From Candidatus Accumulibacter regalis (GTDB lineage Bacteria > Pseudomonadota > Gammaproteobacteria > Burkholderiales > Rhodocyclaceae): 64,000 bases of DNA. Of this stretch, positions 17,741-26,429 are shown one piece after another. The notes beneath the pieces are model-generated. The model searched no databases, had not been told where the DNA came from, and saw only the letters and a program-made list of their open reading frames with translations. Within the stretch, counting starts at the first letter, position 1, and each line of letters opens with the position of its first letter. The stretch spans positions 62,001 through 126,000 of the forward strand of contig JEMY01000013.1 in NCBI GenBank assembly GCA_000585075.1. Direction: 5' to 3'. The translations under genes and the position numbers were made by a program.

Positions 17741-18031
17741 TTGATCCCATCAGAGCTACTCCGACAGAACCGGCAACAAATCATGCAGATCGTCGCCGCT
17801 CACCGCGCCGCAAGACCGCGCGTTTTCGGCTCGGTTCTGCGTGGCGAGGATAGCGAAAAGAGTGACCTGGACCTGCTGGTTGATGCCCTACCGGGGGCGA
17901 CCCTGCTCGATCTCGGGAGTATCCAGATTGACCTTGAAGAACTCCTTGGCATCCGGGTAGACGTACTGACGCCAGGCGATCTGCCAACCCGGTTTCGCCA
18001 ACAGGTATTGCGGGAAGCACGGCCACTGTGA
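17741..18031 (+). CDS. MNT-domain nucleotidyltransferase, antitoxin of HEPN/MNT pair
   Basis: A 96-residue minimal nucleotidyltransferase. The signature GSVLRGEDSEKSDLDLLVD (residues about 30-48) contains GS and the DxD metal pair. A TTG start at 17741 is used because GAAGAGG lies 6-12 bp upstream and the family N-terminus fits. MNT proteins partnered with HEPN RNases act as antitoxins, in the Shewanella system by polyadenylylating a HEPN tyrosine. The stop overlaps the GTG of the HEPN gene (GTGA), so the pair is translationally coupled. Confidence 0.9.
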   Translation: MIPSELLRQNRQQIMQIVAAHRAARPRVFGSVLRGEDSEKSDLDLLVDALPGATLLDLGSIQIDLEELLGIRVDVLTPGDLPTRFRQQVLREARPL

Positions 18032-18405
18032 ATGCCAATGACACCAAGCTGCGGCAGCTGGACTACGTTGAGCACATGCTCGAGGCGATTCGCCTGGTCC
18101 GCAGTTACGTTAAAGGCATGAGCCGTGACGCCTTCTTCGCAGACAAGAAAACCCAGCAAGCGGTCGTCCTGAACATTCTGATTATTGGCGAGGCGGCCGC
18201 TCAGACTGCCAAGGAATACCCGGAATGGGCAAACCGACACCCGGAGGTTCCGTGGCGAGCCATGCGCGGCATGAGAAATCGTCTGGCACACGGCTACTTC
18301 GACATCAATCTGGAGTTGGTTTGGGATACGGTGCAGGGTCCCTTGCTTGAACTTCGAAGCCAGTTGCTTGGAGTCCTGAGCGAGGAATCTGCGGCCAAGA
18401 AATAA
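18028..18405 (+). CDS. HEPN-domain RNase toxin (DUF86) of HEPN/MNT pair
   Basis: A 125-residue all-helical HEPN protein. The active-site motif RNRLAHGY near residues 84-91 fits R-x4-H-x-Y, in which Arg and His form the RNase centre at the dimer interface and Tyr is the residue modified by the MNT partner in studied systems. A GTG start overlaps the MNT stop by 4 bp. Upstream helix VLNILIIGEAAAQTAKEYPE is typical of DUF86. The catalytic residues are intact, so the toxin is likely active. Its 3' side abuts remnants of another toxin-antitoxin module on the opposite strand. Confidence 0.9.
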   Translation: MNANDTKLRQLDYVEHMLEAIRLVRSYVKGMSRDAFFADKKTQQAVVLNILIIGEAAAQTAKEYPEWANRHPEVPWRAMRGMRNRLAHGYFDINLELVWDTVQGPLLELRSQLLGVLSEESAAKK

Positions 18406-18864: not shown

Positions 18865-18988
18865 TCATTGCGAGGAGGCGCAGCCGACGCGGCAATCCAG
18901 TTCCATCCTCTCACCTTTTTCCGCCGCATTGGCAACGCAAAAAGCCAAACCTCTGGATTGCCGCGTCGGCTGCGCCTCCTCGCAATGA
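18865..18988. repeat. MITE-like element with perfect 36-bp inverted repeats
   Basis: Bases 18865-18900 and 18953-18988 are exact reverse complements over 36 bp (arm begins TCATTGCGAGGAGGCGCAGC), separated by a 52-bp loop that has its own CTTTTT/AAAAAG ends. CATTGCGAG...GCAATCC palindromes are widespread non-autonomous repeats in bacteria. The transcript would form a very long hairpin. No transposase is inside. The surrounding 18.4-19.2 kb holds no intact gene. Confidence 0.92.
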
Positions 18989-19176
18989 CCCGCGGGCTGG
19001 TGTGGCGCCGCCTTCCCGGCGAGACATTCGGCCAAGCCGAAAACGGCGCGACACCCTGCGCTCGCTTGACTTCATCGCTTCCCGACGGCGTGCGACACTA
19101 CACTGCTCCCCAGCGATTGAAGGCCGGACCTGGATATGCTCCAATCAAGTCGTTTTCCGATGGCATTTTTCGTCAA

Positions 19177-19932
19177 ATGGTGATGACCTCCCCGCCGTTC
19201 GCGCCGCGATGTCTGTGCCTGGGTATCGAAACCGCTTTCGATGACCTTCTCTCCATTCACAAACTGGCCGGCTGGCGAGCGGACACCAACGAAGGCGTTT
19301 CCCTGGCCGGGCAGCAGATCGCCGCCGCTGCCGACCGCCTCGACGAACTCACCGAGGGCGCGGCCTTCGTCCTCGGACACAATGTCGTGCGCCATGACCT
19401 CCCGGCACTCGCCAGGGTCTATCCACAGCTGAAACTGAACAAGCTGCCAGCCGTCGATACGCTGGAACTTTCCCCGCTCGCTTTCCCCGCCAACCCGTAC
19501 CACAGCCTGGTCAAGGACTACAAGCTCGTCCGTGACGCACGCAACGACCCGCTCAAGGACGCGCAGCTGGCGCTGAAGCTCTGGCAGGACCAGTACGCGG
19601 CCTTTGCCGCACTTGCTGTCTCGTCTCCCGACGAGATCGCCTGCCACCATTTCTTCCTCGCGCGTGACACCAGGGGAGGCGTCGGCAGCTTCTTCGCCAA
19701 GCTCCGGGCGGCGATGCCGCCGAAGCCTGGCGAGGTCCGTGAGGCCGTCGGCCGCCTCGCGGCGGGCAAGGTTTGTCCCGCTCATCTTGCCGAGATCCTC
19801 GACCAGGCGCTCGTCGATCCAGGCGTCGGGCGGGCATTCTCCTACGTGCTCGCCTGGCTGCGCGTCAGTGGCGGCAACTCCGTCCTGCCCCCTGGGTACG
19901 CCTGCAATACCCGGCAACGACCGAGCAGATAG
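19177..19932 (+). CDS. DEDD exonuclease-like N-terminal part of a frameshifted giant helicase gene
   Basis: This frame encodes the front domain of the protein continued at 19888. It resembles a DnaQ-type DEDD exonuclease: LCLGIETAF (motif I), LTEGAAFVLGHNVVRHDLPA (motif II) and RNDPLKDAQLALKLWQDQ (motif III). Motif I normally reads DxE; here the first Asp is Gly (GGT, one transition from GAT). The frame is lost in a run of five C at 19888-19892: with six C the protein would read SVLPPWVRLQYPATTE straight into the helicase frame. A single-base deletion or a sequencing error is the simplest cause. Start at ATG 19177 or 19183 is uncertain; no ribosome-binding site is clear. Confidence 0.62.
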   Translation: MVMTSPPFAPRCLCLGIETAFDDLLSIHKLAGWRADTNEGVSLAGQQIAAAADRLDELTEGAAFVLGHNVVRHDLPALARVYPQLKLNKLPAVDTLELSPLAFPANPYHSLVKDYKLVRDARNDPLKDAQLALKLWQDQYAAFAALAVSSPDEIACHHFFLARDTRGGVGSFFAKLRAAMPPKPGEVREAVGRLAAGKVCPAHLAEILDQALVDPGVGRAFSYVLAWLRVSGGNSVLPPGYACNTRQRPSR

Positions 19933-22900
19933 AGAAGTTGCGCGAGACACGCTGCGCCGACCCGGCCTGCCCGTACTGCGCCGTCTATCTGGACCCCGGC
20001 AGGGAACTGGAACGCTACTTCGCCTTTTCCGCCTTTCGCCCGGAGCCCGCGAACGCCGCGGGAGGCTCGCTGCAGGAGGACCTCGTCCGCGCCGGGTACG
20101 GCGAAGAAAGCCTCCTCGCCATCCTGCCTACCGGCGGCGGCAAGTCGATCTGCTATCAGCTGCCGGCATTGTCGCGGCACTGGCGTAACGGCGCTCTCAC
20201 GGTGATCGTCTCGCCGCTGCAGTCGCTGATGAAGGACCAGGTCGACAACCTGATCAAGGTGGGGATCTACAGCGCAGCGACCCTCAACGGACTGCTGACC
20301 ATGCCGGAACGACGCGACGTTCTGGAGAAGATCCGCCTCGGTGATGCCGGAATCCTCCTCGTGTCCCCGGAACAGTTCAGAAACCGGGCCTTTGTCGAAG
20401 CCATCCGGCAGCGACAGATAGGCGCCTGGGTATTCGACGAGGCCCACTGCCTCTCCAAGTGGGGCAACGACTTCCGCCCGGACTACCTGTACGTCTCGCG
20501 CTTCATTCGCGAGCGCCACGCGCGCAGGCCGGACGACCGCGCGCCGGTCAGTTGTTACACGGCAACCGCGAAACGCGAGGTCATCGAGGATATCCGCAGC
20601 CACTTTCTGGATTCGCTTGGCGTCGAGCTGCGAATCTTTGACGGCGGGCACGAACGGCAGAACCTGCAGTACGAGGTGATGGCGGTGACCAAGCCGGAAA
20701 AACAGCCTCTGATCCATCGGCTTCTCGAGAAGGAGTTCGGCGACGCCGCCAATGCTGACCGCCACGGCGGCGCCGTCGTCTTCACGGGCCGTCGCAAGGG
20801 CGCAGAAGAGATATCCGGTTTTCTGCGCGACATGGGCTGGGCCTGCGCGCACTTCCACGCCGGCCTCGACCCAGGCATCAAGAAGGACGTGCAACAGGCG
20901 TTCATCGAAGGCGAGCTCAGGGTCATCGTCGCCACCAACGCTTTCGGGATGGGGGTCGACAAGCCCGACCTGCGCATCGTCATCCACGCCGACATTCCAG
21001 GCTCGCTTGAAAACTACCTCCAGGAGGCGGGCCGCGCAGGGCGTGATCGGCAGGACGCGCGCTGCGTGCTGCTCTACGACGAGGAGGACGTCGAGTCCCA
21101 GTTCAACCTGTCGTCCCGCTCCCGCCTCTCGCGCAGTGACATCGCCGCCATTCTGCGCACGCTTCGCCGCTACGCCGGAAAAACGAAGAGCAGCGAGATC
21201 GTCGTCACGCCCGGTGAAATCCTCGCTGACGACGATCTGGAAAGCAGCATTGACGCCGACAATCCGGACGCCGACACCAAGGTCAGAACGGCCATTTCCT
21301 GGCTGGAACGCGCGCGATTTCTGGAGCGCAACGAGAATCACACGCGCGTCTTTCCCGGCAGCCTCAAGGTGCCGACAGTCGAGGCGGCCGCGCAGCGTCT
21401 GGACAAGGCGAACCTCTCCAATGACATGCGACGCAAGTACCTCGGTCTGGTGTCGCTGTTGATCAATGCACGCGACGACGAAGGCGTCAGCACCGACGAA
21501 CTGATGGCCGCGCTGGGCGAGTCCAGCGACAACATCATCCGCATGCTTCATCAACTCGAGCAGATGGGCGTTCTCAGCAACGACCTGGCGCTGACGGTTC
21601 TGCTGCGCAAGGGCGTCAGGGACGCCAGCAGTGATCGGCTTGCCCGCGTGGCGGAAATGGAAAAGGCGGTGCTGGCGCTGCTCCCCGAACTGGCGCCCGA
21701 CGCCGACAGCGGCGAGTGGCAGGACGGCAATCTGCGGGGGCTGTGCCAGGATCTCAAGCTGCGCAGTGGCGTCGACTTCATCCCCGAGCAGCTGATGAAA
21801 CTGTTGCACTCGCTGGCGCGGCCTTTTGGCGATGGCGAAAAGGGTCGGCGGGCGTCCTTTGACGTCAGGTTGCTGCGCCGCGAAATCCTCAAGGTTCGCC
21901 TGCGGCGCAGCTGGTCCAACATCCGCGGGATCAGCGACAGGCGCCGGGCGGTGGCTGGCGTTCTGTTGCAGACGCTGCTCGGCAAGCTCGACGACAAGCT
22001 GCGCGGCGTCGACCTGCGCGTGCAATGCACGCTCGGCGATCTGGCCGGGGCGCTGCGCTCCGATCTTGAAATCGGGCCACAGCTGAAGGACGAGTTGACC
22101 GCCATCGACGCCGGCCTGCTCTACCTGCACGACAACGGCGTCCTGATCCTCGATCGCGGCAAGACGGTCTTCCGCTCGGCAATGACGATCCGCATCAACC
22201 CGGAAGAAAAGTCGCGTGGCTTCACCAACGCGGATTTCGAGCCGCTCAAGGAACACTACAGCGAGAAGAACTTCCAGATTCACGTCATCCACGAATACGC
22301 GAAGCTGGGCCTGAACAAGCTGTCTGCCGCATTGAGCTTCGTTCTCGCCTATTTTTCCCTGCCCAAGCTCGACTTCATTCGCCGCTACTTTGCCGGCCGC
22401 AAGGAAATTCTGGAGCGGGCAACGACGGAAGAGTCGTATCGGCGCATCGTCGAAAGCCTGCGACACCCCCTGCAACAGCGCATCGTTGCCGAAAAACCGG
22501 ACGCCAACCGCCTGATCCTTGCCGGTCCCGGGTCGGGCAAGACACGCGTCATCGTGCATCGCGTGGCGTACCTGGCCCGTGTTCTGCGCGAACCCGCGTC
22601 GAGCATCATCGTCCTGGCGTTCAACCGCGGCGCGGCGTGGGAGATCCGTCACCGCCTGCGCAGTCTCATCGGCGCCGAAGCGGGCGCGGTGACCGTGCTC
22701 ACCTACCATGCCCTGGCACTTCGCCTGACCGGCACGAGTCTTGCCGCCCTGGCCGAGAACAGCGGAGAAGAACCCGCACGGCAAGGTCTCGACCAGATCC
22801 TCGACGAGGCCGTCGCCCTGCTGCAGGGGAAAACCGCTCCGGGCGGAGTCGATGGCGAAGGCGACGAACTGCGCGAGCGCCTGCTCGCCGGCTATCGCTA

Positions 22901-24395
22901 CATCCTGGTCGACGAGTACCAGGACATCGACCAGCGCCAGTACGAGCTGATCAGCGCCCTCGCCGGCCGCCAGACCCAGGACAGGGATGCCCGCCTGACC
23001 GTCCTCGCCGTCGGCGACGACGACCAGAACATCTATACCTTCCGGGGCACCAGCAACACCTTCATCCATCGCTTCCAGCTGGACTACCAGGCGACGGTCG
23101 AGTATCTGGTCGAAAACTATCGCTCCAGCGCCCATATCGTCGCCGCCGCCAATACGCTCATCGCGCCGCATCGCGAGCGGATGAAGATCAGCCACCCGAT
23201 TCGCATCAACCATTCGCGCAAGGACGACCCGCCGGGAGGACGCTGGCAGCAACTCGACCCCGCAGCCCAGGGCCGCGTACAGGCGCTTCGTGTCCCCAGG
23301 GATGCGATCGGCCAGGCCGTCGTCGTGATGGCCGAGCTCGCGCGGCTGAAAGCGCTCGACCCGACCGGCGACTGGTCCGATTTCGCCGTGCTGGCGAGAA
23401 ACCGGGCGACCCTCGACCCCGTCCGCGCCTGGTGTCACCAGAACGACGTCGCCTTCCGCATGTCCGAGCGCGACAGCTCCGGACCGAAATTCCACCAGAC
23501 GCGCGAGGCCTGCCGTCTTCTCGACCTGTTGCGCAACAAGCCTAAGCGGCGATGCAAGGCGGCCACCCTGGCGCGCTGGTTCGAGGCTCGTTTCTCGGAT
23601 GCGCAGCACGCCAACCCCTGGCTGGTGTTGCTCGCCCAGTTCATTGACGAGCTGAACTGCGTGTGGGGCGATCTGTCTCTGCCCAGCGGCACCATCGTCG
23701 ACGAGCTCTACGAGTTCGCCACCGACGCGGCGAGGTCCGAGCAGGGCCGCCTGACACTATCGACGGTGCACTCGGCCAAGGGGCGCGAGTTCCGCCATGT
23801 CGTGATCCTCGACAACGGCGACTGGCAGGATGCGTCCGACGACGAACGCCGTCTCTACTACGTCGGCATGACCCGCGCAAGGGAACTGCTCCTGCTGTGC
23901 GAATCCATGGGTGCGACGAACCCGTTCCCCCCACGCCTGTCGCACCCCGGCATCACCCGGGTTCCCCTGCCCCAGGGCATCGAACGCCCGGAAGCCCTTG
24001 CCTGGCGCTACGTTTCGCTCGGGCTGGCGGACGTCGACCTCAGCTTTGCCGGGCGACAGCCTCCAGGCCATGCGATCCACCGAGCGCTGGAACGGCTCGA
24101 TCACGATTCGGCGCTGCGAGTCGTTCAAACGGGCAAGCGAATCGAACTTTGCGCCGCCGAGGACGGACAGCCAGTGGGCGCCATTGCAAAAAACTGCCGC
24201 CTTCCCGCTGGTCAGATAATAGCCATCAAGGTCGACACCCTCGCCCGGCGATTCAGGAAGCAGTCGAATCCGGATTTTGCCCACCAGCTCAAGGTCGACG
24301 CCTGGTGGGTGCCGCTCGCCACCGTGACGATTGCGCCGAATGGGGAGATTCAGAGCGGTCAAATCCGTAGACCATGGAACTCGAACGCCCAGTAA
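19773..24395 (+). CDS. RecQ-like plus UvrD-like double helicase (main part, frameshifted at 5' end)
   Basis: Homology begins about 19888, after the frameshift; the upstream part of this open frame is not the natural N-terminus. First comes a Cys cluster (CADPACPYC). The SF2 RecQ core follows: Walker A LPTGGGKSICYQLPAL, DEAH box FDEAHCLSKWGNDFRPDYL, and motif VI QEAGRAGRDRQDARCVLLY. A helical/winged linker follows. A complete SF1 UvrD/Rep core comes next: LAGPGSGKTRVIVHR, VTVLTYHALALRLTG, ILVDEYQDIDQRQYELI, GDDDQNIYTFRGTS, LVENYRSSAHIVAAANTLI, TVHSAKGREFRHVVIL and RLYYVGMTRARELLLL. Both ATPase sites look intact. With the exonuclease domain upstream the ancestral protein would be about 1,740 residues. 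Its position in an island with toxin-antitoxin and SirTM genes suggests a DNA-targeting or defence role (inference). Confidence 0.85.
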   Translation: MSRSSCRDPRPGARRSRRRAGILLRARLAARQWRQLRPAPWVRLQYPATTEQIEKLRETRCADPACPYCAVYLDPGRELERYFAFSAFRPEPANAAGGSLQEDLVRAGYGEESLLAILPTGGGKSICYQLPALSRHWRNGALTVIVSPLQSLMKDQVDNLIKVGIYSAATLNGLLTMPERRDVLEKIRLGDAGILLVSPEQFRNRAFVEAIRQRQIGAWVFDEAHCLSKWGNDFRPDYLYVSRFIRERHARRPDDRAPVSCYTATAKREVIEDIRSHFLDSLGVELRIFDGGHERQNLQYEVMAVTKPEKQPLIHRLLEKEFGDAANADRHGGAVVFTGRRKGAEEISGFLRDMGWACAHFHAGLDPGIKKDVQQAFIEGELRVIVATNAFGMGVDKPDLRIVIHADIPGSLENYLQEAGRAGRDRQDARCVLLYDEEDVESQFNLSSRSRLSRSDIAAILRTLRRYAGKTKSSEIVVTPGEILADDDLESSIDADNPDADTKVRTAISWLERARFLERNENHTRVFPGSLKVPTVEAAAQRLDKANLSNDMRRKYLGLVSLLINARDDEGVSTDELMAALGESSDNIIRMLHQLEQMGVLSNDLALTVLLRKGVRDASSDRLARVAEMEKAVLALLPELAPDADSGEWQDGNLRGLCQDLKLRSGVDFIPEQLMKLLHSLARPFGDGEKGRRASFDVRLLRREILKVRLRRSWSNIRGISDRRRAVAGVLLQTLLGKLDDKLRGVDLRVQCTLGDLAGALRSDLEIGPQLKDELTAIDAGLLYLHDNGVLILDRGKTVFRSAMTIRINPEEKSRGFTNADFEPLKEHYSEKNFQIHVIHEYAKLGLNKLSAALSFVLAYFSLPKLDFIRRYFAGRKEILERATTEESYRRIVESLRHPLQQRIVAEKPDANRLILAGPGSGKTRVIVHRVAYLARVLREPASSIIVLAFNRGAAWEIRHRLRSLIGAEAGAVTVLTYHALALRLTGTSLAALAENSGEEPARQGLDQILDEAVALLQGKTAPGGVDGEGDELRERLLAGYRYILVDEYQDIDQRQYELISALAGRQTQDRDARLTVLAVGDDDQNIYTFRGTSNTFIHRFQLDYQATVEYLVENYRSSAHIVAAANTLIAPHRERMKISHPIRINHSRKDDPPGGRWQQLDPAAQGRVQALRVPRDAIGQAVVVMAELARLKALDPTGDWSDFAVLARNRATLDPVRAWCHQNDVAFRMSERDSSGPKFHQTREACRLLDLLRNKPKRRCKAATLARWFEARFSDAQHANPWLVLLAQFIDELNCVWGDLSLPSGTIVDELYEFATDAARSEQGRLTLSTVHSAKGREFRHVVILDNGDWQDASDDERRLYYVGMTRARELLLLCESMGATNPFPPRLSHPGITRVPLPQGIERPEALAWRYVSLGLADVDLSFAGRQPPGHAIHRALERLDHDSALRVVQTGKRIELCAAEDGQPVGAIAKNCRLPAGQIIAIKVDTLARRFRKQSNPDFAHQLKVDAWWVPLATVTIAPNGEIQSGQIRRPWNSNAQ

Positions 24396-24434
24396 CGAAA
24401 AGCCAATCCTTGGGCAGATTTTATGCGCTTTCTT

Positions 24435-25286
24435 TCAGGTTCCCCCTTGCGAGGTCTGCTCGATGAATTCAGAAATATCACCTTTAATGCAGATGCTTTT
24501 GTGAGCAATCTGTCGGGGCACGTCGGCATGCTCCATGTTAACGCGAATCAGCGCTGAATTCGCAAACGAGTCGGTGATCCTTTCCATTGGCAGGCGAATA
24601 ACTGCGGGTGTGTTGTACCCTGAACCAAGGTCCAACAGCAGCAGCTTCTTGCCGTTCATGTCCTCCAGCCAACGGAGCAGTCGTTCACGCTGCGGAGCGA
24701 AATGGCCATCCACCATCGACCCGTCAACGCGAACGTTCGGAAACATGGTTCCTCCGCAATTCGGGCACACCGGAACGGCCGCTTCATCAACAATAATCTG
24801 CTCAACCGGATCCAGCGCATTGTTCAGCCGATCAAAGAACGGCTTCATGTCCCAGGCCTGCTGGCAGCAGGGAATCGTACACTGAATTTTTCCATAACTG
24901 CCCTGCGGTGAATAAATGCGCTGCGTATCAAATCCGTTCTTGTGAAACAGCTCGTCAACGTTGGAAGTCATGACGAAGCAGTTTCTGTCGCCAATTAAAC
25001 TGCGCAGCTTTTGGTATAGAGGATTCGTTGATTGGCTGTAGTAGACATAGTTCAGCTGTGTCGCCCAGTAACCCCACATTTCCAACGGCGTCCAATTCCG
25101 GTAGCCGACAAGATCATACTGCCTCAAAAAACCGCGCCTTTTCCAGGCGGGAAAGACTCGGGCGAACGCTTCGCGGTCGGAATAGTTCAGGCCCGCGGCG
25201 GCAGTAAGCCCTGCGCCCGCACCAATCAAAATCCCGTCGCTTTCTTTTATCAGAACGCAGGTGTCTTTTATATTCTCATTAATCAT
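24435..25286 (-). CDS. SirTM-class (class M) sirtuin, putative protein ADP-ribosyltransferase
   Basis: A 283-residue Sir2-fold protein. GILIGAGAGLTAAAGLNYS is the NAD-binding GAGxS-like loop in the SirTM form. TSNVDELFHKNGF carries the conserved Asn, and YSPQGSYGKIQC carries Gln in place of the deacetylase catalytic His. Zinc ligands are CTIPC and CPNC. This pattern matches SirTM enzymes of Staphylococcus and Streptococcus, which ADP-ribosylate a lipoylated GcvH-like carrier and lack strong deacetylase activity. Its ATG overlaps the macrodomain stop (ATGA). The usual partners (lipoate ligase LplA2, GcvH-L) are absent nearby. Base composition is lower in G+C than the surroundings, suggesting transfer, probably from Firmicutes. 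Confidence 0.88.
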   Translation of the reverse strand: MINENIKDTCVLIKESDGILIGAGAGLTAAAGLNYSDREAFARVFPAWKRRGFLRQYDLVGYRNWTPLEMWGYWATQLNYVYYSQSTNPLYQKLRSLIGDRNCFVMTSNVDELFHKNGFDTQRIYSPQGSYGKIQCTIPCCQQAWDMKPFFDRLNNALDPVEQIIVDEAAVPVCPNCGGTMFPNVRVDGSMVDGHFAPQRERLLRWLEDMNGKKLLLLDLGSGYNTPAVIRLPMERITDSFANSALIRVNMEHADVPRQIAHKSICIKGDISEFIEQTSQGGT

Positions 25287-26164
25287 AATACTTCCATCAG
25301 CTTTTTATAAAGAGCGCAATCCTTATCGGTGAAAACGTTGAAAACGACGTGGTCCAGATCGGCCGCATGTTGCTGCAACCAGGAAATAACCGTTGAAAAC
25401 GCCGCCTCGGCCGCTTCGGCCTGTGGATAACCAAAAACACCGGTGGAAACACAGCAGAATGCCACGCTTCTAATCTGCGGCATTGCTGCGCTCAGCTCCA
25501 GGCAATTGGTATAGACCTCCCGCAACTGCCGTTCGCTCTCCTCATCCAAGCTATCACTGACAATGGGCCCGACCGTGTGCAGGACAAATTTGGACGGGAG
25601 ATTGTAGGCTCTGGTAATTTTGGCCTGTCCCGTCGGTTCAGGAAATCCTTGCCTGCGCATGATGGCATCGCAGTCATCCCTGAGTTGAACGCCTGCGGCA
25701 GTATGTATGGCATTATCGATGCACTTGTGCAGCGGCTGAAAGCACCCGAGCATTTGATTATTTGCCGCATTGACAATTGAATCAATTCTAAGCTTGGTGA
25801 TATCGCCTTGAAAAATGGAAACACGAGTGGAGCCTACGCGCTTAGCGTTCCGGACAAGGTCATTCACGTCAACGATCTTCTTTTCGGTCAGCTCAGTCTG
25901 CAGCAGCCGATTGAGGGCCTCGATTTCGGTTTCCTTCAGAAAGCCGGGTTGAAGAATGTTGAGGGCGGCGTGGAGCAACCTCCTTCGATCCTCATAACCA
26001 ATCGCCGCGGGGGCTCGGAGCCGCGAGAGCGGATCCTTAACGGCAGACAACAAGACATCGAGTGCCGAACACTTTTCAGCCTCGCTGTCAAACGGCAGTG
26101 CCGCTTTATATTCCTCAAACAGAGAAAGATCATCCGCATAATCGGTGTGAAGGAGCAGTTTCAT
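25283..26164 (-). CDS. Zinc-type macrodomain protein-ADP-ribose hydrolase (SirTM partner)
   Basis: 293 residues. The N-terminal 110 residues are helical. The macrodomain follows: VSIFQGDITKLRIDSIVNAA (ADP-ribose pocket), NNQMLGCFQPLHKCIDNAIH, TGQAKITRAYNLPSKFVLHT, and CCVSTGVFGYPQAEAAEAAF (diphosphate loop). The C-x4-H-x-C cluster in GCFQPLHKC is typical of the zinc-containing macrodomains found with SirTM; these remove the ADP-ribose that SirTM adds. AAGGAG about 10 bp before the ATG at 26164 is a good ribosome-binding site. This is the first gene of a two-gene operon with the sirtuin. G+C is lower than flanking core genes. Confidence 0.9.
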   Translation of the reverse strand: MKLLLHTDYADDLSLFEEYKAALPFDSEAEKCSALDVLLSAVKDPLSRLRAPAAIGYEDRRRLLHAALNILQPGFLKETEIEALNRLLQTELTEKKIVDVNDLVRNAKRVGSTRVSIFQGDITKLRIDSIVNAANNQMLGCFQPLHKCIDNAIHTAAGVQLRDDCDAIMRRQGFPEPTGQAKITRAYNLPSKFVLHTVGPIVSDSLDEESERQLREVYTNCLELSAAMPQIRSVAFCCVSTGVFGYPQAEAAEAAFSTVISWLQQHAADLDHVVFNVFTDKDCALYKKLMEVL

Positions 26165-26370
26165 ATTTATAGTTTCTCCTTGTTACTTTTTTCTTTACCG
26201 CCCCATGAATTGCTTCAACGGTGCCCCAGCTCTCGAATAGCTTACCGCTTTCACTCCGGAACAGGTGGCAGAGGGCAAGGCTGCGCTACCCGGAGGATGG
26301 GCGAGCCCGCCCGTTGGGCTTCAGAGCGACTGCCACGGATCTCATCACGTCGCCAATCATACCTGCCAAG

Positions 26371-26406
26371 AAAAAAGCCCCCGCCAGCTTGCCGGCGAGG
26401 GCTTTT
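26371..26406 (-). terminator. Bidirectional rho-independent terminator downstream of acnB
   Basis: A GC-rich hairpin (AGCCCCCGCC pairing imperfectly with GGCGAGGGCT) is flanked by an A-run at 26371-26376 and a T-run at 26403-26406, so it can end acnB transcription on the minus strand and also works in the plus direction. Confidence 0.8.
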
Positions 26407-26429
26407 TCCACTGTCGCTTACGGCGAAGG

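Follow-up and report, generated by a model that had tools for sequence, protein, structure and literature searches.

A minimal SirTM/Zn-Macro operon in a variable slot of the Candidatus Accumulibacter regalis genome

Introduction

Class M sirtuins (SirTM) and zinc macrodomain proteins (Zn-Macro) occur together as a lone gene pair, within an extended operon, or fused in one protein (PMC11490716). In the extended operon of Lactobacillales and Staphylococcaceae they are encoded with GcvH-L, the lipoate ligase LplA2 and the redox partners OYE and LLM (PMC4518038, PMC11490716), and both this operon and the fungal fusion have already been tied to oxidative stress (PMC4518038). The lone pair is likewise in print as an 'independent' or 'minimal' operon (PMC4518038, PMC11490716), one example being that of Methanobrevibacter oralis, whose macrodomain, MorMacro (8rsi), is unable to demodify S. 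pyogenes GcvH-L (PMC11490716). According to PMC11490716, no SirTM target besides GcvH-L is known, nor are the targets of other SirTM/Zn-Macro systems.

Here we describe a SirTM/Zn-Macro pair in Candidatus Accumulibacter regalis, in a 64,000-nucleotide stretch of contig JEMY01000013.1 (the window). Judged by its sequence, the pair is an acquired minimal operon of a kind already in print; what is new here is the redox-gene and Rrf2/LysR neighbourhood of comparable minimal pairs in other organisms.

Results

The pair lies on the minus strand between a recQ-uvrD fusion gene and acnB, with the following features in window coordinates:

25283..26164, minus strand: zinc macrodomain (Zn-Macro) gene, 293 aa, the upstream member, whose product is predicted to be a mono-ADP-ribosyl hydrolase (eraser)
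24435..25286, minus strand: class M sirtuin (SirTM) gene, 283 aa; predicted protein ADP-ribosyltransferase (writer)
25283..25286, minus strand: ATGA overlap of 4 bp, macrodomain stop and sirtuin start
26176..26181, minus strand: AAGGAG, Shine-Dalgarno-like, 11 nt upstream of the macrodomain ATG, read directly from the DNA
26372..26407: inverted repeat directly beyond acnB, with 17-nt arms (88% complementary) that end in A/T runs
24390..26348: variable slot between the recQ-uvrD fusion and acnB, from comparison with the relative G008

The ATGA overlap physically links the sirtuin and macrodomain genes and may couple their translation. The recQ-uvrD fusion is convergent with the pair, and acnB stands on the same strand beyond the inverted repeat, a probable acnB terminator that would separate acnB from the pair and that is absent from the output of a consensus terminator scan. 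On this layout the pair appears to form a two-gene operon of its own, of the minimal type; the GcvH-L and LplA2 genes that accompany the pair in the extended SirTM operon are not encoded with it.

The sirtuin scores 25.3 bits against PF02146, just over the cut-off of 24, and matches only 8rsn (130 bits) and 5a3a (102 bits) in the PDB at E <=0.001. The latter, which we take to be the S. pyogenes SirTM, has its Asn and Gln 19 residues apart in our alignment, matching the published N118/Q137 spacing. In the motif TSNVD...SPQGS a Gln takes the place of the His found in ordinary sirtuins (QG for HG); the catalytic positions are Asn109, Gln128 and Arg186, and the structural zinc site is Cys136/140/174/177; N109, Q128, R186, C136, C140, C174 and C177 are invariant in 10 of 10 aligned sirtuins. 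Its pyrophosphate loop, GSGYNTP, is one letter off the class motif GVGx[NT]TP (PMC4518038), from which the Shewanella (SAGFNTP) and Streptomyces (GAGFNTP) sirtuins also depart. The nearest relatives found are only 39-40% identical to the window sirtuin, and the Aerococcus sirtuin 25%. In a tree of 22 rows (11 Q-type class M, 8 HG or His-type, and 3 others), a 100/100 branch divides the Q-type class M rows from the HG rows, and the window sirtuin clusters with its counterparts from Shewanella, Vibrio and Streptomyces on an unstarred branch (87/95).

The three other rows (a Paenibacillus pair and Levilactobacillus), which lack a macrodomain partner, are placed with the class M rows of Bacillota. 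On Paenibacillus and Mesobacillus plasmids (L109 1680-3491, L110 3991-5852), two tandem sirtuins, one bearing Gln and the other Glu at the catalytic His position, are followed by genes for an HD protein, a nicotinate phosphoribosyltransferase and an isochorismatase-family protein. These loci have no annotated macrodomain and may represent a two-sirtuin system linked to NAD. A comparable tandem occurs on Lactobacillaceae plasmids: one (L040 4857-7047) has a Gln-type sirtuin followed by a gene, annotated as a cupin-domain protein, with Glu at this position, and another (L041 3935-6119) has two sirtuin matches, of which the one read has Glu.

The macrodomain protein matches the NCBIfam model NF003163, 'protein-ADP-ribose hydrolase', at 307.1 bits (cut-off 272), and its solved relatives are led by 8rsi (221 bits), with 5kiv at 196 bits. 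It carries NAAN at 132-135, a zinc loop of Cys141/His146/Cys148, and Asp150; after NAAN, the Cys/His loop replaces the Gly-rich stretch, as in Zn-Macro proteins, and N132, N135, C141, H146, C148 and D150 are invariant in all nine aligned macrodomains. Aligned to IRRLPVSK of the S. aureus macrodomain is VSDSLDEES in the window protein, which thus seems to lack the positive patch associated with binding of GcvH-L; this stretch presumably corresponds to the published Arg175/176. The sequence-only reading of this DNA, which had proposed two overlapping genes for a class M sirtuin with a zinc macrodomain and had named ordinary Rhodocyclales genes with deacetylase activity as a counter-possibility, is borne out by the 4-bp overlap, the NF003163 and 8rsn/5a3a matches, the N109/Q128/R186 residues, and a Q-type sequence set apart from the HG rows.

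The pair shares with the minimal operon of M. oralis the two genes, the Gln-type sirtuin and the zinc-loop macrodomain, and its macrodomain finds its best solved match in MorMacro itself (PMC11490716, PMC4518038). It differs in its host, a betaproteobacterium by the sequence-only reading. The extended operon, represented here by an Aerococcus locus (L042), has the same two enzymes in the same order, but the window genome yielded neither GcvH-L nor LplA2 and the sirtuins are distant. The sirtuin's best solved match, 8rsn, is Foc1Mfs1 (PMC11490716), one of the fungal Mfs1 macrodomain-SirTM fusions, which combine the same two domains in one protein, whereas the window has two separate proteins.

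Both composition and context point to a foreign origin. At 52.0%, the G+C content of the 1730-bp stretch of the pair is the lowest in the window, in keeping with the lower G+C noted in the sequence-only reading; stretches of this length average 63.7% (sd 3.0), and none of those outside the pair falls below 58.3%. GC3 is 0.62 and 0.58 in the pair genes, versus 0.85 in acnB and 0.81 in the recQ fusion. In the comparison with G008, shared sequence ends at 24389 and restarts at 26349, and the G008 slot holds 6.36 kb of other DNA with different genes, so that the pair occupies a slot filled by other genes there. A match to acnB was found in 26 of 28 same-genus genomes, and the sequence shared with the closest relatives (93-94% identical) beyond acnB stops between 26434 and 26325. 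The variability of the slot and these breakpoints support, on sequence grounds, acquisition of the pair by horizontal transfer.

The slot between recQ and acnB looks like a site of gene turnover. In G008 (L132 1432-7788) it carries genes that by eye resemble those for IMP dehydrogenase, a ParA-like ATPase and UspA. On the plus strand of the window, 18868-24395 encodes a large DNA-repair-type protein whose gene seems to be broken into two parts that overlap out of frame. The upstream part is presumably DnaQ-like and is matched by neither PADLOC nor NCBIfam, and the other is a helicase frame of 1540 aa that combines RecQ and UvrD. Further upstream, 17741-18405 (plus strand) encodes an MntA-like nucleotidyltransferase (PADLOC PDC-S09) with a partner that we take to be HepT-like, and a stretch related to this region (76% identical) lies just past acnB in the relative G003 (L099).

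The pair looks very rare in its bacterial group. A sirtuin match at E <=1e-10 was found in 41 of 121 related genomes, its own included, and the best match besides the pair reached 94 bits, versus 665 for the pair; over 95 bits, its own genome stood alone among 28 of the genus. All 30 sirtuin places read (L002-L031), of 42 besides the pair, have the HG motif. No other Q-type sirtuin appeared at the thresholds used in 369 genomes of its class (1e-30), 398 of its phylum (1e-35) and 399 of its order (1e-35), samples that overlap and in which alignment-based searches scored at most 6 candidates per genome; the 24 other loci over threshold in the phylum and order samples are all HG. Other scans revealed two further Q-type SirTMs in Pseudomonadota, one in Shewanella nanhaiensis, which was the single locus from a scan of genome contigs with a single-sequence query, and one on a plasmid of Vibrio sp. 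THAF190c.

We found no GcvH-L in the whole of the host genome (4.63 Mb, 85 contigs, listed as 100% complete). An Aerococcus GcvH-L query reached the canonical gcvH beside gcvT and one weak place (E 0.31), and PF01597 (GCV_H) gave one match over its cut-off, the canonical gcvH, and two partial ones under it. Nor did we find LplA2 genome-wide, either with PF21948 (LplA-B_cat), whose one match is the LipB beside lipA and which also matched in 13 of 14 control genomes, or with an Aerococcus LplA query, a search run without a positive control of its own; elsewhere this query does detect the LplA of a Mesomycoplasma locus (L111). In the window itself neither GcvH-L nor LplA2 had a match, and at eight other minimal-pair loci the Aerococcus GcvH-L and LplA queries gave nothing at E <=1 save one 40-residue LplA match in Streptomyces (L034, E 0.49).

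The sequence-only reading was therefore right that these partners are missing, and the distant gcvH-L/lplA2 locus that it had named as a counter-possibility was looked for in the host genome and not found. It had treated their absence as unusual, a view that does not hold: minimal operons have been described as 'independent' or 'minimal' (PMC4518038, PMC11490716), and missing lipoate partners are accordingly no anomaly. Its proposal of a target other than GcvH-L is reasonable, since GcvH-L was not found in the genome, but the question of the target has already been posed in print.

A Mesomycoplasma hyorhinis locus (L111 3643-8081) holds an extended SirTM operon (LLM, GcvH-L, SirTM, LplA, OYE) with no macrodomain annotated. 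A tblastn search within 10.8 kb returned nothing beyond a 24-residue match (E 0.95), and by sequence this locus is a writer without an eraser nearby, that is, within 10.8 kb.

We compiled the neighbours of eight minimal-pair loci from outside the host genome, using reading frames and Pfam on chosen proteins for the unannotated ones (L032, L034, L036, L038); a ninth locus, L080, was left out because it lies near a contig end and has short frames.

Vibrio sp. THAF190c plasmid (L033): flavodoxin-fold oxidoreductase directly upstream, DUF1330 downstream, two LysR genes; further genes for an ABM-family quinol monooxygenase and an aldo/keto reductase
Enterococcus: Rrf2, NmrA, pair, PNPOx, Nudix; flavodoxin-fold reductase further on
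Treponema: NAD(P)H-binding, PNPOx, Rrf2, pair
Niallia: Rrf2, flavodoxin-fold oxidoreductase, NAD(P)H-binding/NmrA, pair
Roseburia and Subdoligranulum: nitroreductase, PNPOx protein with 4Fe-4S domains, pair
Shewanella nanhaiensis (L032): LysR, tandem SnoaL, pair
Streptomyces sp. NBC_01450 plasmid (L034): tandem SnoaL, MoaF-like, pair

At six of these eight loci the gene string adjoining the pair encodes a redox protein of the flavin, NAD(P)H or Fe-S type, Rrf2 standing between the redox genes and the pair in Treponema, and Rrf2 or LysR regulator genes occur at five. For the Vibrio flavodoxin-fold oxidoreductase the nearest NCBIfam model is KefF, below its cut-off. By product name, redox-type genes make up 13 of 39 flanking genes at the four annotated loci, where at most five genes were taken on each side (four upstream in Enterococcus). 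Four arbitrary 45-kb control stretches of the same plasmids have 4 such genes among 162 (Fisher p = 1.2e-7), a p-value that is only a guide because the categories were chosen after the loci had been seen. The tally counts ferritin and thioredoxin and omits radical SAM genes; with glutathione transferase counted as well, the control rises to 5 of 162 (p = 4e-7). The sample is small, at eight loci. Our literature searches on SirTM with nitroreductase, oxidoreductase or Rrf2 gave no description of this pattern for minimal pairs.

The loci with the nearest sirtuins in the tree (L032, L033 and L034) share the macrodomain-then-sirtuin order with the window pair but differ in their neighbours, namely LysR (L032, L033), SnoaL (L032, L034), the flavodoxin-fold oxidoreductase (L033) and the MoaF-like gene (L034), none of which stands at the window pair; indeed, no redox, Rrf2/LysR or SnoaL gene lies beside it. 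The tandem SnoaL protein, found at two of the eight loci (Shewanella and Streptomyces, 45% identical to each other), was considered as a dedicated target and is kept as a lead only: of 24 plasmid records that match it, only Streptomyces NBC_01450 has it beside a pair, most have no SirTM in the plasmid sirtuin search, and none was found in the host genome in a search without a positive control.

A link to phage defence, suggested by the sequence-only reading, found no support in the searches. Neither protein of the pair matches any PADLOC family at E <=1. Of ten proteins encoded near other minimal pairs, nine are without a PADLOC match at E <=0.001, the tenth giving an 18.7-bit BrxP match through its Fe-S part. 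Among viral contigs, a single-sequence scan found no relative of the pair, and profile scans found seven macrodomain loci and five sirtuin loci, one of them Q-type (L080) and four HG; phage records gave one match, a 5.5-kb Staphylococcus entry. The Q-type locus (L080 355-1579, an IMG/VR contig) encodes a SirTM and a Zn-Macro in shortened frames, with a recombinase-like frame adjoining by eye. The 1540-aa helicase beside the pair matches 68 PADLOC models (the best 25 include DpdF, GajB and PsyrT), seemingly through generic helicase domains, and so was not counted for defence.

Discussion

The gene layout, protein family, catalytic residues, missing GcvH-L and LplA2 matches and variable slot are all read from the DNA. 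We think it probable that this pair is a horizontally acquired minimal SirTM/Zn-Macro operon whose products reversibly mono-ADP-ribosylate a host protein with an unlinked gene, probably under redox or electrophile stress. The sirtuin would use NAD+ to attach a single ADP-ribose to an acidic side chain of this protein, whose gene would lie elsewhere in the genome; with Gln128 in place of the catalytic His, deacetylation is not expected of it. The zinc macrodomain would use its zinc to hydrolyse the Asp/Glu-ADP-ribose bond, so that the two enzymes could act as an on/off switch. Both the transferase and the zinc-hydrolase steps are modelled on the biochemistry of the family (PMC4518038, PMC11490716). 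The switch might serve a redox, quinone or electrophile stress response, and the modified protein might be a redox enzyme or a cofactor-carrying protein, as the neighbours of comparable pairs hint. By analogy with those loci, a role in redox or electrophile stress is the best-supported guess for the pair, and against it stand the pair's own neighbours, recQ-uvrD and acnB, and an operon without a redox gene.

We tentatively entertain, as a possible though doubtful extension, that minimal pairs are mobile redox/electrophile switches which elsewhere act on the adjoining flavin- or NAD(P)H-dependent enzymes and here act on an unlinked enzyme of this kind belonging to the host. Candidate substrates would then be PNPOx, PNPOx with 4Fe-4S domains, the KefF-like flavodoxin-fold reductase, NmrA and nitroreductase.

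The same foreign composition, the lack of a linked partner and the restriction of matches over 95 bits to one of 28 genus genomes would also suit a neutral passenger, newly acquired and functionless in its host. We regard this as unlikely, for both frames are intact and overlapping, AAGGAG precedes them, and the catalytic residues are kept. It is likewise improbable, in our judgement, that the pair acts on lipoylated carriers in place of GcvH-L, either the canonical GcvH or E2 subunits made by LipB/LipA. Such lipoylated proteins should exist in this organism, given that gcvT-gcvH and lipB-lipA are present; yet the macrodomain seems to lack the positive patch, GcvH-L and LplA are without a match (E <=1) at the eight minimal-pair loci save that in L034 (E 0.49), and MorMacro, from a minimal operon, cannot demodify S. 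pyogenes GcvH-L (PMC11490716).

Very improbable, finally, is a defence or toxin-antitoxin module in which the eraser holds a toxic writer in check: Sir2 proteins do occur in defence systems, the writer/eraser logic recalls DarT/DarG, the slot is variable, and some 6 kb from the pair lie an MntA-like gene (PADLOC PDC-S09) and its partner, but neither protein has a PADLOC match at E <=1, the SirTM class is presumably catalytically distinct from defence sirtuins with NADase activity, redox genes accompany the pair at comparable loci, and the Mesomycoplasma extended operon keeps its sirtuin with no macrodomain match within 10.8 kb.

Returning to the reading that we favour, a reversible switch on an unlinked host protein, the window pair shows that this module can occur without any linked partner. 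The neighbour pattern of the comparable pairs provides a short, testable list of candidate targets, and, if minimal pairs do act as mobile switches on such enzymes, this list would give the minimal SirTM/Zn-Macro pair its first named candidate targets.
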